In this document: one piece after another, positions 38,957 to 60,491 of the stretch
Numbering within the stretch: position 1 is the first letter of the stretch
Layout: each line of letters opens with the position of its first letter
Assembly: GCF_947500995.1 (NCBI RefSeq)
Contig: NZ_CANMUA010000002.1
Location: 1 to 64,000, forward strand
Origin: an uncultured Serinicoccus sp.
GTDB lineage: Bacteria > Actinomycetota > Actinomycetes > Actinomycetales > Dermatophilaceae
DNA: 64,000 bases
Direction: 5' to 3'
The notes under the pieces: generated by a model
What the model was told of the DNA's origin: nothing
The model's database searches: none
The model's input: only the letters and a program-made list of their open reading frames with translations
Position numbers and translations under genes: made by a program

Positions 38957-41900
38957 TCAGTAGTGCTCGGCGATGTACTCGTACGCCCGCTCGAACAGAC
39001 CGGGGGTCTTGTGCAGTTGGTGCCTGTGCAGCACTTCACGGACGTGTCGACGTACGAGTTGGTCGCCCTGTTGCGTGGCCTCCCAACCGTCGTACCGAAC
39101 TTCCCGGACGATGCTGTCGATGTCGTTGACGACGCGCTCGACCAGGGCCGGCGAGTCATCCGCGGCGTACTCGACGAAGATTTGCGTCAGTGCCCCCACA
39201 CGCGGATCGGGCAGCAGGTCCAGCTTGCCCTCGTGATCTGCCTTTTCAGCCGCAGTTAGGTCCTTCGCCAACTGGAAGGCCTCCCGCAGCCACTCGATTG
39301 ACTGCTCGGCCGCGGCCATGGTCCGTTCCCGTAGACGATCGAGCCGCTCGGCGAGCGACTTGTACACGGGGTGTTCGCCCGAGGCGTCCTCACGCTTCTT
39401 CAGCCGGGCGGCGATGGAGTCGATGATGTCGTCGGCGGTCTTGCCCTCAACCTCTTTTGGATCTTCCAGAAGGCCTTCGTCGATCAGGGTGCGGACCGTT
39501 TCGGCGTCGGCTACTACAACCTCATCGGCGCGGGTGACCCTGATGTCGTCCATGTGCCCGTGCACCAGGCCCAGTGTCTTCGCGCCGAGCCTGTGCCACA
39601 GGTGGTCGGCCGGTCCGGGCGGGGGCTGCAAGGAGGCGTAGACCTGGGACAGGAAGCGGTACTCCATGCGGTGGGTGCGCAGGTCGTCGTGCGGCCAGAG
39701 GGTTTCCCAGATGCCCTCAAGCATGACGTAGTTCGCAGCGAACTTCTGCTCGTCCTCGGGTCGGGGCATCCTGGCCTGGGCATCTATCAGCGTCTGTGGG
39801 CCCTGCTGGTTAACGTCAATGCCGGCGAACCGGACCATGGTGGCTTCTAGCTGCGCCTCGAAGACCTCGACGAGCCCCTCGATCTCGATCTGCTGCTGTG
39901 CCTGCTTCGGGTTGGCCGGTGCCATCGCCGTGGCGAAGCCAGCTCCGAGACCGACGTAGTCGACGATGATCCCGTACCGCTTGTCTGCACCCGTCTCGGG
40001 GTTGCGCCAGGTGCGGTTTGCCCGGGTGATCGTCTGGAACAGCGTGTGGTCTTTCAGCGGCTTGTCCAGGTACAGCACGCCCTCGATGGGTGCGTTGAAC
40101 CCTGTGCCAAGCTTGGAGGTGCAGACCAGGAACTTCAGTGGGTCACCGTGGGTGCGGAACCGCTTGAGCAGGTCGGCCTCCTGCGACTCGGTCAGGGCGT
40201 ACTTCTGCCAGGCGGGGTCCTCCCCCTTCGCGGTGCCGACGGTCATCACGACGGCGACCTCGTCCCGCACTGGCGCTGGCACGTCGTCGCCGATCTGGGC
40301 CCACTCCCGCTGCTGACGCTCTTCGAGCATCTGACCCAGCTCCTCGGTGTACGCGACGCACGCGGCCCGGTCGACCACGACGATCTGCGCCTTCATCCCG
40401 AGCGGGTCCACGGTGGAGTAGAAGTGGTCAATGAGGTCCTCGCAGACGGCCCGTACCCGGTCGGGGTTGCCGAAGAACGTCGAGGCCCGGGAGGCCCGCC
40501 TGGCGAGTTCGTCCTGCTGGACGTCGTCGAGGTTCTCGTCCTGCGCCATGACCTTGAACGCCTCATCGAGGCCTTGCTTGTCGAGGGTGAACTCGACCCT
40601 GCGTGGGGCGACGTGGATCGGCACGGTCATCCCGTCGCGGATCGACGCGTCCGTGCCGTAGGTGTGCAGCGCACTGCCGGGGTCCGTCTCGTCACCGAAA
40701 GTCGCAAAGGTGTTGCGGTCGACGTCGGCGATCGGGGTGCCGGTGAACGCGAAAAGGTTGGCGTTCGGCAGTGCCGCCCGCATCGTCTGCCCCAGGTCGC
40801 CCTCCTGGGTGCGGTGGGCCTCGTCGACCAACACCACGATGTTGTCCCGCTCGTTCAGCACTCCGGCGCCCGCGAATTTGTGAACTGTGGTGAAGATCAG
40901 TCCACGCCGGTCGGACCTCAGCAGGTCCTGCAAGGCACCCGCGGTGGGCGGTACTTGCAGCCGTGGCATGGACGTGGTGCGGAACTGGTCCCATAGTTGC
41001 TGGACGAGTTGCACGCGGTCGGCGACCAGCACGATCGTCGGGTTGTTCAGCTCGGGGTCGCGCAGCAGCTTCCCGGCCGCGAACACCATCGCCAGCGTTT
41101 TGCCCGACCCCTGGGTGTGGTAGATCAGGCCCTTGCGCCGGGCCGGGTCCTTTACCCGGCCCACGATCAGGTTGACGGCTTCGTACTGGGTGTATCGGGC
41201 TAGCAGCTTGTTCAGCGAACGGGTGCCGTCGTCGGACTGCGGCGTCTCGAACGCAACGTAGTCGGCCAGGAAGTCGAGCACGGTCCGCGGCGTCAGCATC
41301 GAGGTCGCGGCCTGCAGCACGTCGGCCAGGCGCGGCTGGTCCTTCACCGCCCCCCAGGTGTGCCAGTGCTGCACCGGGGTGCGAACACCGGCGTAACGGA
41401 ACTGTTTGCCCTCGGTGGCGAAGGTCAGCACGTTCGGCACGAAGAACGGCGCCCAGCTCTCCTGGTAGGTCTCGACCAGCTCGCTCGCGCCCTTGACCCA
41501 CGACACCCGCTGGTTCACCGGTGTTTTCAGCTCCCCCACGACCAGGGGGAAGCCGTTTACCCACAGAACCACGTCGAACCGGGCCACGTGCCCCGGGATG
41601 CCGTACCGAATCTCCTCCGAGACGACGAAGACGTTGTTGGACAAGTCATCGAAATCGAGCAACCGCACCGGGACCGAGCCCTTGGTGCCGACGAACTCGT
41701 GCGTCACCTCACCGCGCAGCCAGGCCGCGAAATCCCGGTTGCTCTCCATCAAGCCGACATCATGCGCAGTCAGGGGCATCGTCCGCAGCTGACGCAACAC
41801 CTCGTGCACCCGCTCCGGGTCCTCCGCGATCACCGGGTTCAGCCGCACCAGCGACTCCACCACCTGGTCGGTGACGAACGGATCCTCGTCCGGCCGACCC

Positions 41901-41992
41901 AGCTCATTGGCCGGGACGTGAGTCCACCCGACACCTTCCAACGCCTTGATGAGCGGCGCCTGAACACTCAGAAGCTCCCCCAACCCGCTCAT
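38957..41992 (-). CDS. hsdR: Type I restriction endonuclease, R subunit
   Basis: FDVVLWVNGFPLVVGELKTP nuclease motif; IYHTQGSGKTLAMVFAA; VLVDEAHRTQEGDLG; FAFTGTPI. Confidence 0.96.
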   Translation of the reverse strand: MSGLGELLSVQAPLIKALEGVGWTHVPANELGRPDEDPFVTDQVVESLVRLNPVIAEDPERVHEVLRQLRTMPLTAHDVGLMESNRDFAAWLRGEVTHEFVGTKGSVPVRLLDFDDLSNNVFVVSEEIRYGIPGHVARFDVVLWVNGFPLVVGELKTPVNQRVSWVKGASELVETYQESWAPFFVPNVLTFATEGKQFRYAGVRTPVQHWHTWGAVKDQPRLADVLQAATSMLTPRTVLDFLADYVAFETPQSDDGTRSLNKLLARYTQYEAVNLIVGRVKDPARRKGLIYHTQGSGKTLAMVFAAGKLLRDPELNNPTIVLVADRVQLVQQLWDQFRTTSMPRLQVPPTAGALQDLLRSDRRGLIFTTVHKFAGAGVLNERDNIVVLVDEAHRTQEGDLGQTMRAALPNANLFAFTGTPIADVDRNTFATFGDETDPGSALHTYGTDASIRDGMTVPIHVAPRRVEFTLDKQGLDEAFKVMAQDENLDDVQQDELARRASRASTFFGNPDRVRAVCEDLIDHFYSTVDPLGMKAQIVVVDRAACVAYTEELGQMLEERQQREWAQIGDDVPAPVRDEVAVVMTVGTAKGEDPAWQKYALTESQEADLLKRFRTHGDPLKFLVCTSKLGTGFNAPIEGVLYLDKPLKDHTLFQTITRANRTWRNPETGADKRYGIIVDYVGLGAGFATAMAPANPKQAQQQIEIEGLVEVFEAQLEATMVRFAGIDVNQQGPQTLIDAQARMPRPEDEQKFAANYVMLEGIWETLWPHDDLRTHRMEYRFLSQVYASLQPPPGPADHLWHRLGAKTLGLVHGHMDDIRVTRADEVVVADAETVRTLIDEGLLEDPKEVEGKTADDIIDSIAARLKKREDASGEHPVYKSLAERLDRLRERTMAAAEQSIEWLREAFQLAKDLTAAEKADHEGKLDLLPDPRVGALTQIFVEYAADDSPALVERVVNDIDSIVREVRYDGWEATQQGDQLVRRHVREVLHRHQLHKTPGLFERAYEYIAEHY

Positions 41993-43170
41993 GCAGCCAC
42001 GTCCTCCATCAGCTCGTCGTACGACTCCGGGATCTCGTGCTCGCCCGACAGTAAGGCGGTCAGCAGGTTCGAGCGGACATTGCGTAGACGGGTCGCATGC
42101 CGCCGCAGCCCTTCACGTGCTTTGGTCAAGGCGTCGTACTTACCGGCGAGACCGGCCATCTCGTCGGCCGCGTGCCAGCGAACCTCGATCGACATAAGCT
42201 CGGTCCGGTTAATCTTTGGCATCTTCGTCCTGCCAGAGCGAGAGGCCGCCACTTCAGTGAAGGCGCTGCTCAGTAGAAGCTGCTGAAGGTAGCGCCGTGG
42301 AACCCCGTCCCGGCCGAGAAGGGGGTACGCGTCAGCGCTACACAAACCCGGCGCATCGGGTACCGCCACTTTGCGAAGGTTTGGCCGAATCTTGGAGTAG
42401 ATCACGTGCCGGTCGTCGAACCGATACTTGCCACTTGTCACCCCATCTTCCCGGGCACTGACCACTCCCACCAAGTCGCCCGTTCCGCTGACGATTCGCT
42501 CCGCACCGACGTGGGGAAGTTCGGCGAGGGAACCCGTCGGCTTCACCAGCGACCCATCAACCGAACAGAGCTGATCGAGACTCACGCAGACTTTGCCGAC
42601 CGGACTAAAGTCAACGTCGCGCATCAGTTCCGTTGCGGAGAGCAGATGCGCGTAGGCGCTCTCGGCGGTCGTGATGGTGTCGTCAAGGGCGGTGACCAGG
42701 TCCACGATGCGCCGCTGCTCGGCGACTTGGGGATACTGGACGGGCACGCTTAAGAGGTCCCTCGGGTTGAGGCGTTCGCGACGCCCGCCGACGCCCTTAG
42801 ACTGCGCTGCGAGGTCCGCCCAGAGCGCAGGCCGCTGGGTGATTAGCTGAACATACTTGGGAAGCGCCCGCGCAGTGGTCCTGTAGGTGGGGAACTCAGG
42901 GGATGCATAGGCTATGTCATGCTCGGCGGGGACGACAGTGATAGCCCCCTCGAACGCCTTCAGCTTGCTGTAAATGAGCTGGCCGGGCCGGACCTGGTGC
43001 AGCTGCTTATAGCGCGTACTCTCCGTGGTGACCGCATCTCGGTGCAACAGTCCTCGCCCGAAGCCGAGCACGCCAACGATTGGATACTTGGTTCCCCGCT
43101 GAACATCTACCTTCTGAATGTCCGGCTGCACGAGGTCTCCGAAAGTGCCCTGCTGCCACTCCTTACGCAT
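41989..43170 (-). CDS. hsdS: Type I restriction specificity subunit
   Basis: Two recognition-domain-like halves with conserved helices (VAEQRRIVDLVTALDDTITTAESAYAHLL; ALTKAREGLRRHATRLRNVRSNLLTALLSGE). Confidence 0.92.
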   Translation of the reverse strand: MRKEWQQGTFGDLVQPDIQKVDVQRGTKYPIVGVLGFGRGLLHRDAVTTESTRYKQLHQVRPGQLIYSKLKAFEGAITVVPAEHDIAYASPEFPTYRTTARALPKYVQLITQRPALWADLAAQSKGVGGRRERLNPRDLLSVPVQYPQVAEQRRIVDLVTALDDTITTAESAYAHLLSATELMRDVDFSPVGKVCVSLDQLCSVDGSLVKPTGSLAELPHVGAERIVSGTGDLVGVVSAREDGVTSGKYRFDDRHVIYSKIRPNLRKVAVPDAPGLCSADAYPLLGRDGVPRRYLQQLLLSSAFTEVAASRSGRTKMPKINRTELMSIEVRWHAADEMAGLAGKYDALTKAREGLRRHATRLRNVRSNLLTALLSGEHEIPESYDELMEDVAA

Positions 43171-44677
43171 TGAAACCCGCCGCCTTAAGTTTCTCGTCCA
43201 GTACGTGCTCGGCGGCGCGCAGCTCGGCCCGGGCGTCGTGGTAGGCGGCCAGGGCGGCCTCGACGTCAACCTCGACGGCAGCCTGGGTGGTGATGTAGCG
43301 CCCGATGTTCAGATCGAAGTTGTTGCCGGCGATCTCGTCCAGGTTGACCAGGCGCAGGTTAAGACCACTCTCGCCGTCGATGTCCTCACCCTGCGCGTAA
43401 GCCGCGTGGATCGTCTCGATGTCGGCGTCGGACATCGTGTTCTGGTTCTTGCCGGCGCGGAACCGTGCTGCGGCGTCGACGAAGAGCACCTTGCCGGCGC
43501 GCTCAACTGGTTTAGTCTTGCGGAAAATGAGTAATGCCACCGGGATAGTCGTGGAGTAGAACAGGTTGTTGGGCAGTCCGATGATCGCCTCGAGCAGGTC
43601 CTTCTCCACCAGGCACTGCCGGATGTTGCCCTCCTTGCCGCCGCGGAACAGAACGCCGTGTGGCATGACGACCCCGACCCGACCGGTGTCCTCCCGCATC
43701 ACCGAGATCATGTGCTGGATCCAGGCGAAGTCGCCGTTCTTGGCCGGTGGCACTCCGCAGAACGCGCGACCGTAGGGGTCGTTGGACCAGCCGGCGGCAC
43801 CCCAGTTCTGAAGGCTGAACGGCGGGTTGGCGATGACGACGTCGAACCGGTCGAGCTTGCCCTTCGTGACGAACCGCGGCTCCCGGAAGGTGTCGCCGCG
43901 GCGAATCTCAAAGTCGCTCAGTCCGTGCAGGTAGAGGTTCATCTTTGCGATGGCGCTGGTGGTCAGGTTGATCTCCTGGCCATGCAGTCGCAGCGTCCGC
44001 GGATCGCCACCGGCTTCGGTGACCGCGTTGATCGTCTCGACCAGCATTCCGCCCGAGCCACAGGCCGGGTCCACGATGTGGTCACCTGGCTGGGGGGCGA
44101 GAATCTTGACGAGCAGGTGGACGACGTGGCGAGGCGTGAAGAACTCCCCGGCCTTCTTGCCGCTGGCCTCGGCGAACTCGCGCAGCAGGTACTCGTACGC
44201 AGCTCCGAGCATGTCGCCTTCGATGTGGTTCGGGTCGAGCTTAACGCCATGAAAGGTGTCAAGTAGGGCAACCAGGGCGTTCTCGGGCAGGCGCTGCTTG
44301 TTGGCCCAGTTCACGTCTCCGAAGACGCCGACCAGGTCGGGGTTGGCCTGTTCGATGCGCTGCAGAGCGGTGTTCAATTTTACGCCGACGTTGGTGACGG
44401 TCTGGTGCACGTCCGCCCAGTGGCAGCCGTCGGGGATCGTGAACGGGTGATAGTCGGCCTCGATCTCGTCCGTGAGCTCGTCGCCCCATATCTCGATCGC
44501 ATGTGCATGCCAGGAGTCCCAGGTGTCCGAGATCCACTTGTAGAACATCACCGGGAAGACATAGGCCTTGAAGTCGCCCGGGTCAACGGGCCCCCGTAGC
44601 GCGTTTGCCGCGGCCCACAGGGTTGACTCGAGCTGGCGCTGCGTCATGACCTGCACGTCGCTGTCGGCGTAGGTCAC
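43163..44677 (-). CDS. hsdM: Type I DNA methyltransferase subunit
   Basis: FFTPRHVVHLLVKILAPQPGDHIVDPACGSGGMLVETI; FDVVIANPPFSLQNWG. Confidence 0.96.
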   Translation of the reverse strand: MTYADSDVQVMTQRQLESTLWAAANALRGPVDPGDFKAYVFPVMFYKWISDTWDSWHAHAIEIWGDELTDEIEADYHPFTIPDGCHWADVHQTVTNVGVKLNTALQRIEQANPDLVGVFGDVNWANKQRLPENALVALLDTFHGVKLDPNHIEGDMLGAAYEYLLREFAEASGKKAGEFFTPRHVVHLLVKILAPQPGDHIVDPACGSGGMLVETINAVTEAGGDPRTLRLHGQEINLTTSAIAKMNLYLHGLSDFEIRRGDTFREPRFVTKGKLDRFDVVIANPPFSLQNWGAAGWSNDPYGRAFCGVPPAKNGDFAWIQHMISVMREDTGRVGVVMPHGVLFRGGKEGNIRQCLVEKDLLEAIIGLPNNLFYSTTIPVALLIFRKTKPVERAGKVLFVDAAARFRAGKNQNTMSDADIETIHAAYAQGEDIDGESGLNLRLVNLDEIAGNNFDLNIGRYITTQAAVEVDVEAALAAYHDARAELRAAEHVLDEKLKAAGFNA

Positions 44678-45116
44678 CCTCGGCCCTCCTCTTTCTCGAA
44701 ACTTCCGCCCTGTCCCGAGCAACTTACATGGACCCTCCCGCGCTGGACCGGCAGGCGGGCTGCAGCAACAGAGGTTGTTCGGCACGGACACCGTGTCCGA
44801 TCGCCGGTGCCCGCACCACGACGCAGCCGGTTCAACGGCCGTCACACCCCAGCTTGGGGTGCTGCACCCGCAAATGGCCGGCAGCCATCGTGGGGTCGCG
44901 GCCAGGAAGAAGGACCTCGGGCTTTCACGTCACACGTCCGTGGAGTTTGAGGTAGGAAGCCAGACAACCTTGGAGGCGTGGGCGGCATCGCTTAACTGGG
45001 GCCCGTCACGGCCTGGAAAGTGCTCCCTCGGGATCCCAAGCTGGCGGAACAGGCGCCCTCAAGATGCATGCGAGATGCACGACGTAGCGATTACGCTGGG
45101 CTGTCGCGTACCGGGT

Positions 45117-46064
45117 TTAGTGGAGGCTCTGAACTGACGCGTCGACGGTAGCTGGTGCGTGGTTGTGACGGTAGTAGTGATCCTCGAGCTCGACCGGGGG
45201 TACGAGTCCGAGCTCGCCGTGCAGGCGTCGGTGGTTGAACCAGTCGATGTACTCGGCGACGGCGATCTCGAGGTCGTCGATGTGCTTCCAGGGCCCTTTG
45301 TTGCGGACGAGCTCGGCCTTGAACAGTGAGTTGAACGCCTCGGCCATGGCGTTGTCGTAGGAGTCGCCGGTCGAGCCGACCGAGGCGACGGCGCCGGCCT
45401 CGGCCAGCCTCTGGGTGTACCGCACGGCGAGGTACTGCACGCCCTTGTCCGAGTGCGCGATCACGCCGGTGGTGTCCTGGCCGGCGTGCTGGCGGGTCCA
45501 CAGGCCCATCTCGAGGGCGTCCAGGGCCAGGTCGGTGCGCAGGGACTTGGATAGCTGCCAGCCGACGACGCGGCGGGAGTACACGTCGATGACGAACGCG
45601 GCGTAGACCCACCCGGCGAACGTGCGGCAGTAGGTGATGTCGGCGACCCACACCCTGTTCGGTGCGGGCGCCTTGAAGTCGCGGTCCAGCAGGTCCGGTC
45701 GGGTGCCCGGACCGGTGCCCGGGATCGTGGTCCTGGGGCCCTTGGCGCGGGTAATCCCGCGCAGTCCCTCGGCCCGCATGATCCGGTGCACGGTGCACCG
45801 GGCGATGCGGTGCCCGGTCCGGTTCAGCTCGGCGTGTATCTTGCGGACGCCGTAGACGCCGTAGTTGTCCGCGTGGACCGCCCGGATCACCTCCCGGTGG
45901 CCCTGGTCGGCCACCGCCCGCGCCGAGGGCGGCCTGGTCTTGGCGGCGTAGTAGCTGCTCGGGGCGATCTGCATCCCGGCCTCACGTAGGACGGTGCAGA
46001 TCGGCTCGACCCCGAACCGGCCGCGGTGCTGGTCGATGTACTCGACCAGCACCGCAGTGCTCAC
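45117..46064 (-). CDS. IS3-family transposase OrfB (DDE integrase core)
   Basis: HRIMRAEGLRGITRAKGPRTT...RVWVADITYCRTFAGWVYAAFVIDVYSRRVVGWQLSKS...STGDSYDNAMAEAFNSLFKAEL. Confidence 0.95.
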   Translation of the reverse strand: MSTAVLVEYIDQHRGRFGVEPICTVLREAGMQIAPSSYYAAKTRPPSARAVADQGHREVIRAVHADNYGVYGVRKIHAELNRTGHRIARCTVHRIMRAEGLRGITRAKGPRTTIPGTGPGTRPDLLDRDFKAPAPNRVWVADITYCRTFAGWVYAAFVIDVYSRRVVGWQLSKSLRTDLALDALEMGLWTRQHAGQDTTGVIAHSDKGVQYLAVRYTQRLAEAGAVASVGSTGDSYDNAMAEAFNSLFKAELVRNKGPWKHIDDLEIAVAEYIDWFNHRRLHGELGLVPPVELEDHYYRHNHAPATVDASVQSLH

Positions 46065-46390
46065 TTCAGCTTGCGGTCGAGCTCCGCCGCGGCGAAAAAC
46101 GCCGACGCCGTCCGCAGAATCTCGTTCGCCCGCCGTAGCTCCTTGACCTCACGCTCGAGCTCGGTGATCCGCTGCGTCTCCGCCGTCGTCGTCCCAGGAC
46201 GGTGGCCCTCGTCGATCTCGGCCTGCGTGACCCAGTTGCGCAATGTCTCGGGATTGATCCCCAGCTGCTCACCCACCCGGCGCAGCGCACCGGTCCTGGT
46301 CGCCGGGTCCCGCCGCAGATCGAGCGCCATCCGGATCGCTCTGTCCCGAAGCTCCTCGGGGTACTTCCTCGGTGCTGCCATGACTCTCAT
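46061..46390 (-). CDS. IS3-family transposase OrfA
   Basis: MRVMAAPRKYPEELRDRAIRMALDLRRDPATRTGALRRVGEQLGINPETLRNWV...EREVKELRRANEILRTASAFFAAAELD. Confidence 0.93.
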   Translation of the reverse strand: MRVMAAPRKYPEELRDRAIRMALDLRRDPATRTGALRRVGEQLGINPETLRNWVTQAEIDEGHRPGTTTAETQRITELEREVKELRRANEILRTASAFFAAAELDRKLK

Positions 46391-46889: not shown

Positions 46890-49800
46890 CTATTCGGCTG
46901 CGACTGCCGGCCTTACGAACGGATCCGAATGGTCGATGTCATCCTCGCTCCAACCGTACCTGGCCCGAAGGAGCTCCAATACCGCAGCCGATGGCAACGG
47001 CTCCGGCCGAACGACCAGACTCCACCAGGTCTGGGCGCTGGCTGTGACGGTCACCAGTAGTGCCTGTCTCAACGCCTCGACGGTGAACAGGTCGGTTGCC
47101 ACCGGGTCGCCCTCCGGCTCCGGGGCCATGAACACCTCGCGCAACTGCCGCGCCTCATCGGGTGACCCCGGCGCGAGAAACGTGTGCCGTGCGTTCTTCG
47201 CGACGTTGTGGACCGCGATCAATATTTGCCAGTCCCTCCAGCCCTCGTCGCGCAGCGTGACGACCACATCGGCAAAGGCGGCATCGTTCCGCAACGCGTC
47301 GAGAGTTGGCCTCATCCGCGGCGGCAAGTCGTTGTAGCGATGCTGGATCTCCTTTCGGCTCCGGTCTGGGTCGTACCCGGGCCCTCTCGTGCTAGGAGCT
47401 GCGAGATCTGGATGTGATTCAGCCGAGGTCACGTCCGGCGCTGAGAGTGGCGCGGTCGTGCGCGGTCGGGCATCGAAACTCGCCTCGGATACGGTCGAGC
47501 GCCAGAGCACGTCGTACGGGACAGCGAATGTGATGTCGGTTAGCAGATCATCCTCAAGACCGCCGACCAAGATCTCCTGGAACCGGTCATCGGACAGCGT
47601 GGAAACCTCCACGACCGCGGCCGTGACTGCTGCCAACGTCCGCCGAGCGACCACGTTGGCCGACTCATGCGTCAGACGGTCGACGGCGGGCAACAGCACA
47701 CTGAGCCTGCTCTCCGCGGGCGTCGATGCCTTGTCCTCGACGCTAAAGTCAGCGCCTGCGGGGAGCGCGGTGACGTAGACGGCCCTGCGCATCGGTACGA
47801 GGCCCAAATCCTTGTCAGCCAGATGCGCCAGTAGGACCTGCAAAGCGGCCGCGAACCGCTCACCGACCGCAACGTCGGCATACAAGTTGCGAAACACGAC
47901 CTTCCAAGTAACCCCTAGGGCATCGAACCGGACGTGGCGGACTTCGGTCGTGTCACCGAACGGTGGCCTCCCGAGATCGTCGACCACCCGATCGACGTGC
48001 TCGTCGAACTCGATGTCCTCGAACCACGGCCGTCGACCCTCAAACGCTTCAGCGAGAAGGTCATCCAGGAACTCGCTGATCCCGCCGCGGACGATAGCGC
48101 CCTCAACGTTCGCCCAGTACGGATCCCCGGCCTTGCGAGCCAAAGACCTGATCTGGGTCAGCTCGAAGAACGCGCCCGTGAGCCAGCCATGCCGATCAAA
48201 GTCCATCGGCCGCTCGGCGAGCAGACGGTGTGACACCAGTGCAACGCAGTTCATGTGAGCAGCGCTGCACCACGACCCCTGGTGGTAGTCGGCGAACGCG
48301 GCGTACGCCAACCCGATCGAGTGCTGAGCTGGGTCCGTGCTATCAACGAGGTACGCCGCCGCCAGTGCGTACTGCTTGGCCGCCATGTACAGGCCCAGCT
48401 CTCGGTAAGCGACGGAGGTTGCCAGAGTCGCGTGCACCATTTGCTCCCGGCTGTCCCCCGAGAACAACCCGTTCCGAGCCCGGTGCAGCTGCTTAAGCGC
48501 AGCAACCCGCCGTTCCGCGCTGATCAACGCCTGGCACCTATCGAGGGCGTTGTTCGCAGCTGTCGTCTCTCCGCTGGTCGTCGCGACCCGCGCGTCGATG
48601 GCATCGACCACCTCGTCGTAACCGGGGATGTCAACCAGGACCGGCGCAAACATCGTCAACACCTTGCCAAGAGTCTCCACAGGGAACAAGGGTGCCCCTG
48701 GGAGAACCTCCACCAGCCTCCTATACGCGCCGATCGCACCCGCCGGGTCCACAAGTGGCACATTGACCAGCGTCAGTTCACCGGCCGCCATCGCCGCTCG
48801 GAGCTCCTCCGAGGTCATGTCTGTGAACTTGTCACCGATGACGTACCCGTCCTCGGTCTCGTTCGCGGTCATCACATCGGGTTGAAGCCGCAGCCACCCG
48901 AGCGTGTCGAGGAGGATGCAGGCGGCACCAGGAGGCGGGTCCGCATTTAGGAGCACCTCGACCCTTTGGGACAGGCCGACGTTCCAAGCATGAAGGGTCT
49001 CCGCAGCGTGCCCAGTCCTGCCACGTGCCGCCGCACCAGTCATGTACATCAGGAGCACCGACGCGTCCGAGAGTTCCTGACCGTCAGCGGTTATGACGGC
49101 TTCGTCCAGGTACTCCGCGGCCCGATCATCGGCGGGAGTCAGGTCGCCCAGGCCGCGGATGTTCGCGGCCACGCACTCGTACAGCGCCCTCCTGCGAAGC
49201 GCCTGTGGACGGCCTGGCTCGAGAGCACTCTCCAGCCGCTCGAGCCAGAATGGCAGGTCGGGGCGGCCCTCGCGGGTCACGCACGCGTAGTGCAAGCACC
49301 CAGCGAGGTCGAGCAGGCGACCCACCGTGTCGACTGGGTCGGTATCCGCGCGCCAGCGAGCAAGGTCCTCGTCGTACCAGTCGGGCCGGTCAAAGGGCAC
49401 CGGCAGCACCCGCGCGGGAAGGTGCAGGTAGGTCTCTGCGATCCAAAACAATGCATGGTCCGAGAGAAGCTCAGCGATCGCGTTGCCGTCGAAGACCGCC
49501 AGGCGCACCCGGTGTCGCTCCATCGCATCTCGCTCGATTGCGTGCCGCCGCGCGACCGGGATATCCGCCTCGCAGTACGCGACGATGGACTCGACCTCGG
49601 ACCCGCCGTCGACGATCTCGGCGACATCAGCACGGATCTTCCCACGCAGGTCGCTCTGCTGGAGCGTGCACGCGAAACCGACCATGGCCCGGTCCGGGAC
49701 GCCGAGGTCGCGCCCGATCCGCTGGACCTGTCCCGGCAGCTGCGTCGGGAATGTCTCGAAGTCGCGACCCTGGTCTCCACCACCGGCGACCGGCCCGGTC

Positions 49801-49940
49801 GCCGGCAGCAGGTTCCGGGTCACCGTCGCCCTGGCGAGCATCCGCGTCAAGGTCTCGAACTCGTGTTGGCCGTTCCGAACTCGCAGTTGATTCAGCGCGA
49901 ACCGGATTTCGTGTCGAACGTGCTCGACATTGTCAGCCAT
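46890..49940 (-). CDS. Large uncharacterised protein: N-terminal PD-(D/E)XK-like restriction-type domain + long alpha-helical region
   Basis: 1016 aa; EFETLTRMLARATVTRNLLPATGPVAGGGDQGRDFETFPT...AMVGFACTLQQSDLRGKIRADVAEI; HRVRLAVFDGNAIAELLSDHALFWIAETYL; remaining roughly 800 aa helical, no recognised domain. Confidence 0.7.
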   Translation of the reverse strand: MADNVEHVRHEIRFALNQLRVRNGQHEFETLTRMLARATVTRNLLPATGPVAGGGDQGRDFETFPTQLPGQVQRIGRDLGVPDRAMVGFACTLQQSDLRGKIRADVAEIVDGGSEVESIVAYCEADIPVARRHAIERDAMERHRVRLAVFDGNAIAELLSDHALFWIAETYLHLPARVLPVPFDRPDWYDEDLARWRADTDPVDTVGRLLDLAGCLHYACVTREGRPDLPFWLERLESALEPGRPQALRRRALYECVAANIRGLGDLTPADDRAAEYLDEAVITADGQELSDASVLLMYMTGAAARGRTGHAAETLHAWNVGLSQRVEVLLNADPPPGAACILLDTLGWLRLQPDVMTANETEDGYVIGDKFTDMTSEELRAAMAAGELTLVNVPLVDPAGAIGAYRRLVEVLPGAPLFPVETLGKVLTMFAPVLVDIPGYDEVVDAIDARVATTSGETTAANNALDRCQALISAERRVAALKQLHRARNGLFSGDSREQMVHATLATSVAYRELGLYMAAKQYALAAAYLVDSTDPAQHSIGLAYAAFADYHQGSWCSAAHMNCVALVSHRLLAERPMDFDRHGWLTGAFFELTQIRSLARKAGDPYWANVEGAIVRGGISEFLDDLLAEAFEGRRPWFEDIEFDEHVDRVVDDLGRPPFGDTTEVRHVRFDALGVTWKVVFRNLYADVAVGERFAAALQVLLAHLADKDLGLVPMRRAVYVTALPAGADFSVEDKASTPAESRLSVLLPAVDRLTHESANVVARRTLAAVTAAVVEVSTLSDDRFQEILVGGLEDDLLTDITFAVPYDVLWRSTVSEASFDARPRTTAPLSAPDVTSAESHPDLAAPSTRGPGYDPDRSRKEIQHRYNDLPPRMRPTLDALRNDAAFADVVVTLRDEGWRDWQILIAVHNVAKNARHTFLAPGSPDEARQLREVFMAPEPEGDPVATDLFTVEALRQALLVTVTASAQTWWSLVVRPEPLPSAAVLELLRARYGWSEDDIDHSDPFVRPAVAAE

Positions 49941-50426: not shown

Positions 50427-52889
50427 ATGAATGACCGTAGGGTCTCTCCCAGAGCGAGGAAACGTATGAAGCAGATGCCTGAAGTCAGCCCCGAGCCTTC
50501 GAACCATGGGGAGATACCGTTCAACGAAGACCCAGAGGCGGAGCTCGGCTTGTTCGCGGGATGCCACACCCCGACAGACCTTCGAAGGGTGTTCCGCGCC
50601 GAGGTCGACAGGGCGGTGGAGCAGATGCTCGCCTTGGTACACGACGCGGACGCGTTCGACGTCATCGAACTCATGCGGATGCAAGAGTTCTTCCCCCTGA
50701 GCCCGCTCCTCACCCTCCCCGACGCGTCAGCACTGAACGTCGAGATCGTCGCAGCCATGCTCCTGGGCCGCCCTTCGCGCAGGCGCCCACCTACACCGCA
50801 CGAGGATTCACGCCCCGACGGTGTCATCCCTGAACTTCGTGATCGCTCTTCGCGCCTGATTCGACTAGCGAACTATCGTCACCTGTCGGAGGCCACGCTC
50901 CAGGGCGACTCGTTAGCGCTGCTCGCCGCGCAGTACCAGTCGTCCGTCCTGCTCATCCGCAACCTTCTGTACGACAGCATTCGCGACGCACAGGATACCC
51001 AACTGTTCGACGACCCGAGAGTTCGGCCGCTGATGAGTGAGTACCTCGGATACACCTATCCAGATGTTGTCGCGGTCCGCAACACGATGAAGAACATCGG
51101 CAGGGAGCGCTTGAAGTCGGTTGTCGACGAGACCATCGATGTGTTCGGACGCGACCGAGGGACCGCGCAAGCCGACATGCCAGTGGAATGGCGGAAAGCG
51201 CTCCAGGCAGCCCTCGAGAAGTTCTTGATCCGGCCAGCGGGCAGAGCAGTGATGACGCCGGCACAGGTGGCGCAGGATGCTGGGATTTCGGAAACGGCTG
51301 CGTTCGCTGTCATGAACTCCTCGGCCCAAGAGTTCGACCCGAGCGTCGCACCGGAAGACCGGGTGTTCGAACTACTGACTTCGACAAACCCGTTTCTCGC
51401 CAAACCTCTGGTGTCGGACGGGGCCGGAAACTTTGCCGAGACCACCATCGGTGTCGGACTGGACTCCTTGCGTCGTACCGTCGAGGGTGCGCTCACGAAT
51501 ACCAAGCACTGGCACACATACGACCAGAAAGTCCGGCAGGTCGTCAGCGAACGTCTTGCCCTCGACTCCCTACAACGTGTCTTGGGGGCGCCACCGGCCC
51601 TGGCAGGCGCCAAGTACTACGCACCCACGGATGACACCAGCGCGCACCTGCTTGGCCGGGACAGCGCGAACCTGAAGAGTGTGGGGAAGATCGTGGAGGG
51701 TGACGGGCTGTTCGTCATCGGCGACGTGGCGATCTGCGTCGAGGTGAAGGGCAAATCGATGTCAGCCCCGGCTCGTCGGGGAGACGTCCACCGACTGTGG
51801 AACGACCTGCGCGCGACGATCGGGAACGGCCATGCACAGGCTGCACGTCTACAGGCGCTCATCGAGAACAACCATGGGATTTGGTTGCGCGACGGCACCT
51901 GGTTCGACCTGAGCCCCGTGCGTGAAGTCCGGTCTGTGGTCGCACTCCTTGATGACATCGGTCCCTTGGGCACGAACCTCGGCGATCATCGCAGCAGTGG
52001 GTTGCTACCAACACACGGCACTCCGTGGATCACATCGCTGCACGATCTTGAGACCATCGCCCAGGTATGCCAACGGCCCTCGGAGTTCCTCCTTTACCTG
52101 CGCCGACGGACCGACTCGGACGTAACCACCTATTACAAGGGCGCAGACGAGCTCGATCTTTTCATGCTGTTCATGGACGCCGACCTCTACGTCGAACCCG
52201 ACCCCGACCGGCTCCACCCGCAACACCCCGACACTCCAGGAGAGACGAAGCGCGCCCGCCCGACTCACGACGAGGACGCGGTCCTGACGTTTGTTGGGGA
52301 CCAGTGCGCCGAGCTGGACGCGTGGATGAACCGTGACAACCTGGTCCCGGGTGTTCCCCAACCGGTAAAGCCGACTTACCGGGCGCTCCCCCGGGTCCTC
52401 GACCTCGTCGACGCAGTCGAGGCGCACGGAAACGGCATGGTCCGCTTCGGCGCTGACATGTTCGCCCTGTCGGAGGACACCCAGCAGACCGTGCTGGAGG
52501 GTATTGACGAGTGCATCCGACGCACCCGCCTTGACGGGCAGCCCCACGACGGGATGATCTCCCTCGCCGGGGCGTGGGGGCACCCGACCCTCTTCTTCTT
52601 CACCCGACCCCACGCTTACGACCAAGACACGGTCCTACGCCGGTTCGCTGCCTACATCCGCCTCAAGCGTCACCAGCTCGGGTCAGACCGGTCGTATGGA
52701 CTGCTCTTCGACGAGGACGGTAACTTCGAAGTCGCCATGTACTTCAACAGCCTTCCGGAGGCCGACGCAAACCTCGACGCCCTCGTCAAGGCGGCGAACC
52801 TACAAGAACCGGCCGCGACCGGCCCCCGCGTCCCCCCTTCGGCTCGCCGAACGACTCGTCGTCTCCGGAGCGGCAGGAAGAACCGCTGA
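50427..52889 (+). CDS. Large uncharacterised protein with internal PD-(D/E)XK-like nuclease motif
   Basis: 820 aa; DGLFVIGDVAICVEVKGKSMSAPARRGDVHRLWNDL fits the D...(D/E)xK core; divergent from the 1016-aa gene. Confidence 0.7.
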   Translation: MNDRRVSPRARKRMKQMPEVSPEPSNHGEIPFNEDPEAELGLFAGCHTPTDLRRVFRAEVDRAVEQMLALVHDADAFDVIELMRMQEFFPLSPLLTLPDASALNVEIVAAMLLGRPSRRRPPTPHEDSRPDGVIPELRDRSSRLIRLANYRHLSEATLQGDSLALLAAQYQSSVLLIRNLLYDSIRDAQDTQLFDDPRVRPLMSEYLGYTYPDVVAVRNTMKNIGRERLKSVVDETIDVFGRDRGTAQADMPVEWRKALQAALEKFLIRPAGRAVMTPAQVAQDAGISETAAFAVMNSSAQEFDPSVAPEDRVFELLTSTNPFLAKPLVSDGAGNFAETTIGVGLDSLRRTVEGALTNTKHWHTYDQKVRQVVSERLALDSLQRVLGAPPALAGAKYYAPTDDTSAHLLGRDSANLKSVGKIVEGDGLFVIGDVAICVEVKGKSMSAPARRGDVHRLWNDLRATIGNGHAQAARLQALIENNHGIWLRDGTWFDLSPVREVRSVVALLDDIGPLGTNLGDHRSSGLLPTHGTPWITSLHDLETIAQVCQRPSEFLLYLRRRTDSDVTTYYKGADELDLFMLFMDADLYVEPDPDRLHPQHPDTPGETKRARPTHDEDAVLTFVGDQCAELDAWMNRDNLVPGVPQPVKPTYRALPRVLDLVDAVEAHGNGMVRFGADMFALSEDTQQTVLEGIDECIRRTRLDGQPHDGMISLAGAWGHPTLFFFTRPHAYDQDTVLRRFAAYIRLKRHQLGSDRSYGLLFDEDGNFEVAMYFNSLPEADANLDALVKAANLQEPAATGPRVPPSARRTTRRLRSGRKNR

Positions 52890-52973: not shown

Positions 52974-53252
52974 ATGACTGACACCGACTGGGTCGCCCTC
53001 GGTGCCATCGCGGGAGCCCTAACGGCGCTTGGGACAGCCGCGATGGCCGTTGCCATCATCGTCACCGCCCTATACGCACGAGACACTCTGCAAGCGACAC
53101 GGGACGACAGCCGAGCGCGAACTCGACCGGTGATCGTCGCCGAATTGCGGCGGGAGAGCCTCTCGAAGGGCACCGCGCTCCTGGTGCTGAAGAACCTCGG
53201 ACAGTCTGTGGCTGCGAACGTGTCGGTGACCTATCCTGGCCCGGCACGCTGA
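52974..53252 (+). CDS. Small single-TM hypothetical protein, probably 3'-truncated
   Basis: MTDTDWVALGAIAGALTALGTAAMAVAIIVTALYARDTLQATRDDSRARTRPVIVAELRRE...; runs into recombinase remnant. Confidence 0.5.
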   Translation: MTDTDWVALGAIAGALTALGTAAMAVAIIVTALYARDTLQATRDDSRARTRPVIVAELRRESLSKGTALLVLKNLGQSVAANVSVTYPGPAR

Positions 53253-53343
53253 CCCCAGAACGACCGAGCACTACGACCGGGCCCGCGGCAACCTCGACCA
53301 CCACGGCGTCCACTTCCTCACCGCCTACGTCGCCGGCGTCTGA
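53242..53343 (+). pseudogene. Tyrosine recombinase C-terminal remnant
   Basis: Manual translation RHADPRTTEHYDRARGNLDHHGVHFLTAYVAGV* with the conserved H...TxxxYDR active-site Tyr context of phage/transposon integrases. Confidence 0.7.
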
Positions 53344-53656: not shown

Positions 53657-54724
53657 ATGTCGGAGAAGCAGTACCGCGACAAGATTGTGGCGATCCGGAA
53701 GCAGCAAGCCAGTGACGAGACGAACCGCGGGAAGGCGCGGGCAGCCGCCGGGAAGCATCGCGCCGACGCGGCCAAGGAGCTCCAGAAGATCACGCCGCGC
53801 ACGAGCGCCAGCATGGCTCGGACCTACCAGCGCAACGCGGAGAACCTAGAGAAGAGGGCTCAGGCCGAGGACAAGAAGGTGAGCGCCCTGTCGGTCAAGC
53901 TCAGCAAGTCAGCCGGAGACCTGGCAACGGCTGAGGAGAACCTCGCCCGTGAGATCAAGAGCTCGGCGAAGAAGGAGGAGGACAAGAAGAAGGCCGATGC
54001 TCGAACCCGGGAGCAGGCGGATGCCCGGCGTCAGCAGAAGGAGAAGAGTCATGCCCGCGAGATCGCGCGGCTCTCCAGCCCTACCGTGCACTACGTGACG
54101 GTTCAGCCGCCGAAGCCAGAGATTCTCCGAGTCCTTTACCTGACCGCCAACCCTGAGATGGACCTCCGAACCGAGGTCGAGGTTCGTGACGTTCAGCAGG
54201 CGGTCAAACGTGCGCTACACCGAGATCTCATTGACATCCAGTACCGGCCCGCAGCTACCCCTGAAGACCTACTCGACGGTCTGAACGACGTCCGACCCCA
54301 CGTTGTCCACTTTTCCGGTCACGCCGGCGATGCCGCGGTATTGTTCGACAACGCCAGCGTCGACGGCCCCGAGGGGCGGGACGTTCCATTTGAGCTGCTG
54401 GCTCGTGCCCTTAGCGCCACCGCTGAACCGCCGAAACTGCTGACCCTGAATGGCTGCGACACCCTTGATGGAGCTGAGGTCTTGCTTGAGGCGACCCCTG
54501 TGATCATCGCAATGGCGACCCAGATCAGCGACTTGGCTGCTAGTGCCTTCGCCGCCAGGTTCTACGCTGCGATTGCCTCAGCGCAGCCGATCGGGCCGGC
54601 GCTACGCCAAGGTGCGGTCGTACTGGACCTGATGGGGCTGGACGAGGGTTGGAAGCCCACCCTGCTCTCACGCGACGATCTTGACGTCGACGACCTGGTC
54701 TTGGTTCGAGTCGCGGGCGAATAG
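53657..54724 (+). CDS. Coiled-coil + CHAT (caspase-like) protease-domain protein
   Basis: N-terminal Lys/Glu/Ala-rich coiled coil; ILRVLYLTANPEMDLRTEVEVRDVQQAVKRA...VRPHVVHFSGHAGDAAVLF...PKLLTLNGCDTLDGAEVL, with His (FSGH) and Cys (NGC) catalytic-type motifs. Confidence 0.8.
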   Translation: MSEKQYRDKIVAIRKQQASDETNRGKARAAAGKHRADAAKELQKITPRTSASMARTYQRNAENLEKRAQAEDKKVSALSVKLSKSAGDLATAEENLAREIKSSAKKEEDKKKADARTREQADARRQQKEKSHAREIARLSSPTVHYVTVQPPKPEILRVLYLTANPEMDLRTEVEVRDVQQAVKRALHRDLIDIQYRPAATPEDLLDGLNDVRPHVVHFSGHAGDAAVLFDNASVDGPEGRDVPFELLARALSATAEPPKLLTLNGCDTLDGAEVLLEATPVIIAMATQISDLAASAFAARFYAAIASAQPIGPALRQGAVVLDLMGLDEGWKPTLLSRDDLDVDDLVLVRVAGE

Positions 54725-55114: not shown

Positions 55115-55612
55115 ATGACCAGCGACCTACACATCCACATCCCCCAGGGCTTCAGCGGGACGATGACCGTCACCAAGGACGGCCAGGTCACCGTCACCGC
55201 TACGGCACCTACCGCGCCGTCCGCCAGCGCCGCCGCCGCAATCTGGTCGACGCTCGACCCGAAGATGGCGGAAGACCTCGAGGAGATGCTCAAGCGCCAG
55301 AAGGGCTACGACGCGACCACGCGCTCCCGCGAGATCGCCAAGGCGCTCCTCTCACGGGGGTGGGACATTTACTCGGTCAACCTCAAGGGTGGCTACATCC
55401 TGTTCACCTACGCGGGCACGCACGAGGCGATCTCGCTGTACCTGAGCTCGCTCGACCTCAACAACGCCAAGAAGTCGCAGCGCAAGTTCATGATGAGCCT
55501 GCCTGGTGTCGACGTGCACGCCCCCGACGTGCGCATCCCCATCAACGGCAACGCCCACGAGCAGGCGCTCGCCAACATCGAGGCCATCGAGGAGTGGGCC
55601 GACGGCAAGTAG
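55115..55612 (+). CDS. Hypothetical protein
   Basis: 165 aa; gagaggag ribosome-binding-like site just upstream of ATG; followed by a hairpin. Confidence 0.65.
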   Translation: MTSDLHIHIPQGFSGTMTVTKDGQVTVTATAPTAPSASAAAAIWSTLDPKMAEDLEEMLKRQKGYDATTRSREIAKALLSRGWDIYSVNLKGGYILFTYAGTHEAISLYLSSLDLNNAKKSQRKFMMSLPGVDVHAPDVRIPINGNAHEQALANIEAIEEWADGK

Positions 55613-56769: not shown

Positions 56770-58005
56770 CTAGGAAGATGTTCCTCGGGCGAAGTCCGGC
56801 TCCCCCGCGCACCAATTGGCTGGGATGCCGAGCGACGTCAACGCAGGTTGGTTGGCCGGCTCCGGGGTCTCCGGGCCACTTACATCTGCAGTGTCGGCCC
56901 ACGAGAGGGGTCGAACTGACGGTATTCCCGGCTCCGCAGTGGCCCACAGACGAGGCACTTGCTTAGTCAAAGATCGCCAGGTCAACCAGGAAGCAGAAAC
57001 GACGTTCGGGTTGTGCGCGCGTCGCCAGCCACGCGGCGTGCGCCAGTGAGCGTCCGTATGAAGATCGGCATCGCGGAGGTGATTCGGCGGCAAGAACGGG
57101 TCGCCGTAGAGCGCCGACCTGAACTCAAAGTCTTTCGTGCGCGCCCCGGTGTTACTCAGTACGGCGGTAACGAGCGGGTGTGGCAGGTTGCGGCCGTAGC
57201 GGTTGGCCTTGCTGTTGAGCACCCTGGTCACCCCGGTCGCGTTGTCTACACCCGCCGCTCGCCCCATTCCCCGCATGAGAACGAGGGGTGAGTCTTGGAC
57301 CCCGGTTGGCAGAGCCCTGAACTCCAAGTGCCACCCCTCTTCTATGAACGGGAAGCAACCGGCGTCCGCATCGTCGTCATACGCCCGACCCAGCCGCCGG
57401 GCGACGTCTTCCGGGTCGAGTCCGTCGAGCCACCGGACAAGGCGGTCACGCAGCTTGGTGCTCTTGACGGGAGCTGGCCCGATGACGTACCAATCGAAGC
57501 TCAGGGACCAGCCGACCACCCGTACTTCGTCCAGGATGGCCTGCACTTGAGCGAGGCGACGATCGCTTGCCTTACGCTCTGGCCGAGCACTCACAACTAC
57601 TGCTTCTAAATAGAACGGCACGTCTGCGTGGACCAGAAAGTCAGGCCGCTTGCTGGTGCCCGAAATGTTCGGGTGGATCTCGACCTCATGCCCGCTGCCC
57701 GTCACAACTTGATGCAGATACAGCTCCCAGAATGCGCTCTCAAATGCGTCGTCTTCACCAGACTGCAATTGGCCAATGACCGAGGCTCGATGCTCCAAAG
57801 GCAATGCGGCGACCCACATCTCGAACATATCGCGGACCGGCTCGAAGAACACTGACCCAGTCCTGTTCAGGAACGCGAATTCGGGTTCGCTCTCCGCTCG
57901 GCGAGTCTTGTCATACCGCGGCACGTCATCGAACACCTTCATGAGTCGACGGTCCCAGACAGTCGCAGGCGCGACCAAACCGAATCTCCCGAGCACGTCA
58001 TCCAC
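56770..58005 (-). CDS. Uncharacterised protein with PD-(D/E)XK-like motif
   Basis: FESAFWELYLHQVVTGSGHEVEIHPNISGTSKRPDFLVHADVPFYLEAVVVS fits the E...PDFLV...LEA pattern. Confidence 0.6.
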   Translation of the reverse strand: MDDVLGRFGLVAPATVWDRRLMKVFDDVPRYDKTRRAESEPEFAFLNRTGSVFFEPVRDMFEMWVAALPLEHRASVIGQLQSGEDDAFESAFWELYLHQVVTGSGHEVEIHPNISGTSKRPDFLVHADVPFYLEAVVVSARPERKASDRRLAQVQAILDEVRVVGWSLSFDWYVIGPAPVKSTKLRDRLVRWLDGLDPEDVARRLGRAYDDDADAGCFPFIEEGWHLEFRALPTGVQDSPLVLMRGMGRAAGVDNATGVTRVLNSKANRYGRNLPHPLVTAVLSNTGARTKDFEFRSALYGDPFLPPNHLRDADLHTDAHWRTPRGWRRAHNPNVVSASWLTWRSLTKQVPRLWATAEPGIPSVRPLSWADTADVSGPETPEPANQPALTSLGIPANWCAGEPDFARGTSS

Positions 58006-58133: not shown

Positions 58134-59596
58134 CTACTCCTCGCCGGAGCTCCCAGGGACGGGGAGATGGATGAATGCCGCACACACCGTGACCTTCCGG
58201 TCGTCACGGACGAACTCGAGGAGCGGCCACCCGTCCACCGGCCCCGGTACCGTGCCCTGGTAGCCGTCGACCCCCTCGAGGACTGCCTGGTAGGTGGCAC
58301 ACGCTGCCGCGAAGTCCTTCTGCCGCATCAATGCCAGCAGGACGCCGAGGTGTCGTGAACGTTCAGGTAGCCGAACAACTGCGGGTCGAGTGCCTTGCGG
58401 ATCGTGTCGTGATCGTGGGCCCACTTGGCTTCGCAGATGAATACCGTCGCCGGCCCGCGACCAGGGTCGAGGACGTCAGCCTGGATGAAGATGTCCGATT
58501 TCCCACCCCGCGTGTACACCTCCCGAGCCGCACCGGGGAGGGTGGCGTTCCACGTCGCCGCGAGCAGGTCGCTGATGCGGTCCTCGACGAGTCCACCGAA
58601 CGCAGTTGGGGTCCGCTCGACAGCGTTCGCCCAGTGGCGCAAAGAGAACAAGACGTCTTGAAAGGTCGCTCGACTCAGCCGCGACCGGGGGTTGAGCTGG
58701 ACCTCCTCCGCGACACCTGGCGGAGGCTCCATTGTGACCGCGGGCTGAGCCGGCTGCTCCGACGGCTCGTCAACCGCGACCGACTCCGCTGCCACGGAAG
58801 CAGGCTGGTCTTCGGCGTCCTCTAGCTGCGGTTCTGCTCCCTGCCACTCCTCCGGGAAGCTCAGGCTGTCGCGAACGGCCTGCCGGTTGATCAACTGTAT
58901 GCGCTTAGCCTCTACCAACTCGGCGAGGCGTTCAGGCAGGTCAACCCCCAAAAACTGATCCACCTGTTCCGCATTAGCGGCCACGATTGGAGCGATGAGC
59001 TCGCGTCGCTCCTGAATTAGATCAGCCAGAACGAGTTCGCCGCGCGCAACCGCGGCCTCATCCTCGCCAGTGAGATTGAAGTACGTGTACAGCGAGAACC
59101 TCACCGCGCGTCCCTCGCGGGAGTCGTCATCAGCGCCGAGCTCCCACATCTCGCCTGCTCGCTGGAAGGTGGCCGCGTCCTCTACTGAGCGATGCGTGAT
59201 CGCATCCAGACCTCCCAGTTCGGCGACGACCGCAGCATCAACGGCATCCAGATCAGCCCCCGTCACATCGGGCCACTGCTGGAGGAAGGACGAGTCGCCG
59301 GCGACCTCCACGGCGACGTAATACCGCCGTGTGGGCAGACCCAGGCTCCGGTCTTCGTTCCACTTGGTGGCGCCCTCGCGCTCCGACGCCGTGCGTAGCC
59401 GACCGAGCGTCGGCGCTTCGATACTCAGCTCCGCGATGCACTCGCGGAGCAGATGCGGCGCGAACGACTCCAAGTCTTCGACCCGGGTGACCGCGTTGAT
59501 ACGTCCGCCAAGCGGCTCGGCCCGCCGCCACAGCTCGCGAGACAGGGGACGGTTCTCCTTGATGAAGGAGGTGAACAGCGGCTCCGGCACATGCAA
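58134..59596 (-). pseudogene. Frameshifted protein with C-terminal PD-(D/E)XK-like restriction domain
   Basis: Frame 1 (58328..59596) GGKSDIFIQADVLDPGRGPATVFICEAKWAHDHDTIRKALDPQLFGYLNVHDT then stops; the other frame continues RHLGVLLALMRQKDFAAACATYQAVLEGVDGYQG... to 58134. Confidence 0.65.
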
Positions 59597-60214: not shown

Positions 60215-60225
60215 ACTGTACTGGT

Positions 60226-60297
60226 GGACGATACTGGGATCGAACCAGTGACCTCTTCCGTGTCAAGGAAGCGCGCTACCGCTGCGCCAATCGTCCC
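60226..60297 (-). tRNA. tRNA-Val(GAC)
   Basis: Minus strand GGGACGATTGGCGCAGCGGTAGCGCGCTTCCTTGACACGGAAGAGGTCACTGGTTCGATCCCAGTATCGTCC; anticodon loop TTGACAC. Confidence 0.93.
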
Positions 60298-60320
60298 TGC
60301 GCGGTGGACCCGCGAGTGCG

Positions 60321-60391
60321 AGGTGGAGACGGGATTCGAACCCGTGTATACGGCTTTGCAGGCCGCTGCCTCGCCTCTCGGCCACTCCACC
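60321..60391 (-). tRNA. tRNA-Cys(GCA)
   Basis: Minus strand GGTGGAGTGGCCGAGAGGCGAGGCAGCGGCCTGCAAAGCCGTATACACGGGTTCGAATCCCGTCTCCACCT; anticodon loop CTGCAAA. Confidence 0.93.
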
Positions 60392-60418
60392 GTGAGGCAT
60401 CTGGTGGTGCTGCCTCAG

Positions 60419-60491
60419 AGCGGATGACCGGGCTCGAACCGGCGACCTCAACCTTGGCAAGGTTGCGCTCTACCAACTGAGCTACATCCGC
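60419..60491 (-). tRNA. tRNA-Gly(GCC)
   Basis: Minus strand GCGGATGTAGCTCAGTTGGTAGAGCGCAACCTTGCCAAGGTTGAGGTCGCCGGTTCGAGCCCGGTCATCCGCT; anticodon loop TTGCCAA. Confidence 0.94.

Follow-up and report, generated by a model that had tools for sequence, protein, structure and literature searches.

The question raised by this locus is what is encoded by a single gene that joins a coiled coil to a caspase-like protease domain and has no obvious partner beside it. The gene lies at 53657-54724 (+) of the window, by which we mean the whole stretch of DNA analysed (64,000 nucleotides from contig NZ_CANMUA010000002.1 of an uncultured Serinicoccus sp.), and an earlier note on the same DNA had read its product, here termed CC-CHAT, as a likely immune effector composed of a coiled coil and a CHAT protease-like domain. 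The open reading frame had the coordinates given in that note, encoded 355 aa from an ATG start, and was coding-like in its GC content by codon position (0.70/0.44/0.77), with a purine-rich, Shine-Dalgarno-like AAGGGGA just 5' of the ATG. A coiled coil does precede the CHAT domain, as the note had proposed, with a predicted length of about 139 aa rather than the roughly 110 aa given there.

Features of the CC-CHAT gene and its surroundings in the window
Feature	Position	Strand	Remarks
CC-CHAT gene	53657..54724	+	355 aa; hairpin N-terminal, CHAT cysteine protease C-terminal
Helical-hairpin (coiled-coil) module	53657..54073	+	residues 1-139; homologous to the PDC-S66 CC-TIR N-terminus
Conserved hairpin-turn motif	53786..53812	+	around residues 44-52; Ser50 invariant in a 14-sequence CHAT and TIR alignment
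CHAT (caspase-like) protease domain	54125..54721	+	residues 157-355; Pfam and PDB matches
Putative catalytic His222 (HFSGH)	54320..54322	+	kept in 16/16 full-length homologues checked
Putative catalytic Cys267 (LNGC)	54455..54457	+	kept in 16/16 full-length homologues checked
Type I R gene	38957-41992		probable defence island
Type I M gene	43163-44845		probable defence island
IS3-type transposase	45117-46390
PD-T7-5-like gene	56770-58005		PADLOC
PDC-S54 gene	58328-59596		PADLOC
tRNA-Gly/Cys/Val	60222-60491

The CHAT domain and its putative catalytic dyad

Pfam searches of the 355-aa protein returned CHAT only (PF12770; residues 172-318, E 1.2e-9; score 38.5 bits, cut-off 24). The sole strong relative by sequence in the PDB was the SAVED-CHAT structure 8tl0, matched at E 6e-15 with the single sequence and at E 2.4e-26 with a ten-sequence profile. 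In the profile alignment, HVVHFSGH and LNGC of CC-CHAT fell opposite HILHFIGH and LNAC of 8tl0, and the His and Cys in these HFxGH and LNxC contexts were invariant both in our alignment A1 and in all 16 full-length homologues. The AlphaFold model, which was built from four sequences (mean pLDDT 69.6, pTM 0.45), was of low confidence in its CHAT part, where mean pLDDT was 30-77 per 10-residue block over residues 141-310 and fell below 50 near residues 163-212 and 221-223. Foldseek, queried with this weak CHAT model, ranked 8tl0 at the top of its PDB matches (E 8.7e-9) and caspase-3 and separase lower. Because the CHAT part was modelled at low confidence, the predicted geometry of the His222/Cys267 dyad is supported by the alignment to 8tl0 and not by a reliable model.

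Every sequence test identifies CC-CHAT as a CHAT protein. The CHAT/caspase-like fold and the His/Cys dyad that the earlier note had deduced from the motifs VVHFSGHAG and LTLNGCDT, both of which are present, were borne out, the former by the Pfam, 8tl0 profile and Foldseek matches and the latter, as a candidate dyad, by the motif alignment and its retention in the 16 homologues.

A patchy and mobile family

Full-length CC-CHAT homologues had 32-67% identity. Within the order, the full protein had a match in 28 of 396 genomes, and in about 10 of these it was full-length; homologues were also present in an Arthrobacter MAG, an Ornithinimicrobium genome and further Actinomycetota (L072, L073, L123, L126). 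Plasmid-borne copies came from Rhodococcus, Curtobacterium, Agrobacterium and Sphingomonas, two of these genera being alphaproteobacterial, and the remaining non-viral homologues were spread across Actinomycetota. Additionally, two homologues (L036, L039) sit within conjugative elements, the L038 copy is interrupted by an IS5-like transposase, and one homologue was located on a viral contig (L107). Our scans of viral contigs recovered this CC-CHAT and one CC-TIR protein (L110) and no more, and a degenerate HFSGH pattern scan of these contigs gave six chance ORFs and L107 again; the CC-only alignment A3 offered no stretch conserved enough for such a scan. The family is, in short, patchy and mobile.

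In L107, the viral contig, about 60 bp separate the end of an intact recombinase gene from the CC-CHAT gene that follows it. In the window, a C-terminal remnant of a tyrosine recombinase (LARHADPRTTEHYDRARGNLDHHGVHFLTAYVAGV*) occupies 53236-53343, leaving about 310 bp to the CHAT gene, and starts where a short membrane-protein ORF (52974-53252) breaks off, in a manner that resembles a recombination junction. An integrase that is always upstream was considered as a general property of these loci and rejected, since only L107 showed it clearly; the window retains the remnant, and integrases occur in the vicinity of the Rhodococcus plasmid copy (L097). A separate arrangement was seen on the Sphingomonas parapaucimobilis plasmid (L096:2363-6270), in which a caspase-family protein, an S8 serine peptidase, CC-CHAT and a small TIR protein form a same-strand run.

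Genomic setting

The gene has conjugation-type genes on one side and a tRNA-Val/Cys/Gly cluster on the other, and by its gene content the region from 38957 to 59596 is probably a defence island. Two large proteins in this region drew attention by eye: one of 1016 aa (46890-49940, minus strand) with an Mrr-like GGGDQGRDFE motif, and one of 820 aa (50427-52889, plus strand) with a PD-(D/E)XK-like GDVAICVEVKGK motif. Neither had a Pfam, PADLOC or NCBIfam match, and they may be unnamed nuclease defence genes. The flanks of homologues contained the Gabija genes GajA/GajB (L037, L095), BrxC of BREX (L034) and a PifA-like NTPase (L032), such neighbours being indirect evidence of a defence role. Elsewhere in the same genome (G000, C1:249885-250553) we noted a second, unrelated CHAT protein (open frame of 927 aa, E 7.4e-23).

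A gene without a conserved partner

We compared the neighbourhoods of homologues, a check that the earlier note had suggested, using 1,496 ORFs within 6 kb of the gene at 22 loci. No neighbour family occurred in more than 3 of the 22 loci, and the two families that reached three loci both belonged to the common conjugative-element context of L034, L035, L036 and L039. A conserved divergent gene beside these four copies was rejected as a partner, being truncated in L034 and L035, absent elsewhere, and part of that one context. The 165-aa gene at 55115, to which the earlier note had tentatively linked CC-CHAT, fared no better: it had no homologue on the plasmids, in any of the 11 other CC-CHAT genomes tested, or in a further 197 genomes of the order. 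Likewise, no antitoxin-like companion gene was recurrent in the 22 loci. The window holds no CRISPR or TPR partner, as had been stated, and a search for the Cas10 palm found none in the whole genome.

Across the 22 loci, CC-CHAT is therefore a solo gene for which no partner is conserved. The impression of 'no obvious partner' gained from the window alone was correct, and the possibility that this copy had been orphaned is not upheld, in that the partnerless state is normal for the family. Given that no neighbour recurs and that the 165-aa gene turned up in no other genome searched, the protein would act either by itself or together with a partner whose gene lies at another site.

A helical hairpin shared with TIR proteins

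The N-terminal part was predicted by AlphaFold to form an antiparallel hairpin (helix 3-43, turn 44-50, helix 51-139), with pLDDT at or above about 90 through residue 110 and a conserved T-x-S-x-S motif at the turn. It matched no Pfam family, and the CC profile retrieved only generic coiled coils from the PDB. However, residues 1-132 matched positions 1-132 of the PADLOC profile PDC-S66 (E 7.5e-5), a phage-defence candidate described as uncharacterised (PMC12482510). The PDC-S66 members L077, L078 and L079 and the related CC proteins L090, L091, L120 and L125 end in TIR, an assignment that was Pfam-confirmed in four of the seven and made by eye in the others.

A model built only from the CC-CHAT hairpins (A2), run over the 396 whole genomes at E <= 1e-3, recovered CHAT proteins in 10 genomes, TIR proteins in two, and no other coiled-coil protein. 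The CHAT-hairpin profile scored 28-45 bits on TIR-derived hairpins, whereas heptad-preserving shuffles reached 15.9 at most, and in the reverse direction 14 of 16 CHAT hairpins exceeded the shuffle maximum of 5.8; the modules of L032 (5.8 bits) and L040 (-1.5) were not above that maximum on their own cross-score. Chance coiled-coil similarity was thus rejected as the cause of the CHAT/TIR link, the shuffles scoring far lower for most sequences. These comparisons indicate that the hairpin is a module common to CHAT and TIR proteins and homologous between them. Two changes between CHAT and TIR labels fit the module tree best, yet a single fusion event was recovered in 20% of bootstrap trees, and repeated domain swapping is accordingly not established.

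The module was also located inside a 1,985-aa protein of genome G849 (L127:2346-8300), in which Pfam identified a ResIII-type helicase and an AAA/STAND-like NTPase, and in which a trypsin-like stretch was recognised by eye. This giant protein is a third context for the module. Separately, the CC-TIR gene of the viral contig L110 (3965-4804; PDC-S66, E 2.4e-88) directly adjoins an integrase, and a relative is annotated in Enterococcus phage EFC-1. CC-TIR proteins such as this one may be phage-defence cargo.

Comparison with known systems

PDC-S66 resembles CC-CHAT in the same N-terminal hairpin, aligned from residue 1, in being a solo gene, and in its prophage and defence settings; it differs in that its effector is TIR, of the NADase type, whereas CC-CHAT lacks TIR and has CHAT as its only Pfam domain. 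SAVED-CHAT is the closest solved CHAT protein by both sequence and fold, and there too the effector stands behind a front domain, in that case one for sensing and assembly in a filament-active protein, but CC-CHAT has neither a SAVED nor a CARF domain according to Pfam. Because its own genome is without Cas10, there is no apparent input from cyclic oligoadenylates. TPR-CHAT (Csx29 of type III-E CRISPR) has a CHAT protease effector as well, whereas CC-CHAT is far smaller and has neither TPR (Pfam) nor a gRAMP or Cas neighbour. In the case of gasdermin-activating CHAT/caspase-like proteases, no neighbour of any kind recurs in the 22 CC-CHAT loci. CC-CHAT is, as judged from its domains, neither SAVED-CHAT nor TPR-CHAT, and has the front half only in common with PDC-S66.

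Two further comparisons concern the front end. SpbK, the TIR protein of ICEBs1 that is activated by the phage portal YonE (PMC12847820), is likewise a solo ICE gene with a helical N-terminal domain before an enzymatic effector, but that domain is a 94-residue 4-helix bundle rather than the CC-CHAT hairpin, and the effector is TIR; the logic is likely analogous, not homologous. The EADs of the Aravind group are small, helical, non-catalytic modules common to different effectors and sensors (PMC8195603), but they are described as death-like adaptors, whereas the CC-CHAT hairpin is a long coiled coil without a Pfam match.

Finally, no Borvo-named profile was matched in PADLOC-DB at E <= 0.1, the presence of a Borvo model in that database being unconfirmed. 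Borvo, which is reportedly a single gene, resembles CC-CHAT in that respect and in its CHAT domain. The literature includes Borvo among defence systems and gives it a CHAT protease domain, PF12770 (PMC10952713).

Proposed mechanism and alternatives

We consider it rather probable that CC-CHAT is a single-gene, two-domain immune protein that acts by abortive infection, the hairpin sensing a trigger or clustering the protein and the CHAT protease disabling the cell. This reading builds on the observed architecture, the conservation of the dyad residues, the hairpin homology, the solo organisation and the mobile or defence setting, and from these we infer activation by clustering, a trigger, a substrate and antiphage activity. 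Specifically, the N-terminal antiparallel hairpin would hold or cluster the protein and would recognise an infection cue, directly or via oligomerisation. Clustering would switch on the CHAT cysteine protease (His222/Cys267), and the active enzyme would cut one or more cellular or phage proteins, with growth stop or death of the infected cell as the result. As a modular front end, the hairpin would drive TIR NADases of the PDC-S66 type as well, such that the sensing and killing parts would be separable, although it could instead be a mere oligomerisation stalk, some other factor doing the sensing. A precedent for CHAT activation through assembly is 8tl0 itself, an activated filament (PMC11417357), and in the ICE-encoded SpbK the helical N-terminal domain binds the phage portal and clusters TIR (PMC12847820).

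CC-CHAT might alternatively be half of a system, with a sensor or activator elsewhere in the genome (e.g., a second-messenger synthase or a STAND protein) and a hairpin that is an adaptor to a matching partner hairpin, as proposed for effector-associated adaptor domains. The module within the AAA/STAND-like protein of G849 is placed as a homotypic adaptor would be, and the sharing of small helical EADs between effectors and sensors (PMC8195603) offers a parallel. However, scans of the source genome each gave one CC-module match, the CC-CHAT gene itself, and with no recurrent neighbour and no Cas10 to set beside it we regard this arrangement as unlikely.

A role in maintenance or competition of the carrier mobile element, exerted not against phages but through post-segregational killing or by excluding rival elements, would suit both the position between conjugation-type genes and a tRNA cluster and the homologues in conjugative elements (L036, L039), on plasmids and beside an integrase on a viral contig. 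Yet no antitoxin-like companion recurs and close relatives reside in defence neighbourhoods (Gabija, BREX, PifA-like), which makes such a role quite improbable. Least probable among the readings weighed here is that CC-CHAT is a protease of general stress or programmed death with no specific role in immunity: CHAT proteins are widespread and diverse in function, and the genome encodes the second, unrelated one, but a patchy distribution, a location on mobile elements and an effector that is exchanged with TIR all speak against it. The single-gene immune protein remains our preferred reading, and the earlier note's view of a likely immune effector is counted as right. Its suggestion of a new effector architecture held in part, in that a recurrent family is real, while the N-terminal module was already known with TIR in PDC-S66.

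Significance

The novelty resides in the combination of CHAT with the hairpin and in the common front end; the protein is close to known kinds and is not yet named. More tentatively, and as something we hold possible rather than probable, the hairpin would be an unnamed, widely shared immunity front end, one sensor or clustering unit placed on two or more killing enzymes (TIR NADase, CHAT protease) and also within one or more giant AAA/STAND-like conflict proteins, such that CC-CHAT and CC-TIR proteins would answer the same kind of phage cue by different killing chemistry. The presence of the same front end on a caspase-like protease and on TIR provides a simple test of whether the front end alone sets phage specificity, and CC-CHAT would add a second single-gene CHAT defence architecture beside Borvo.
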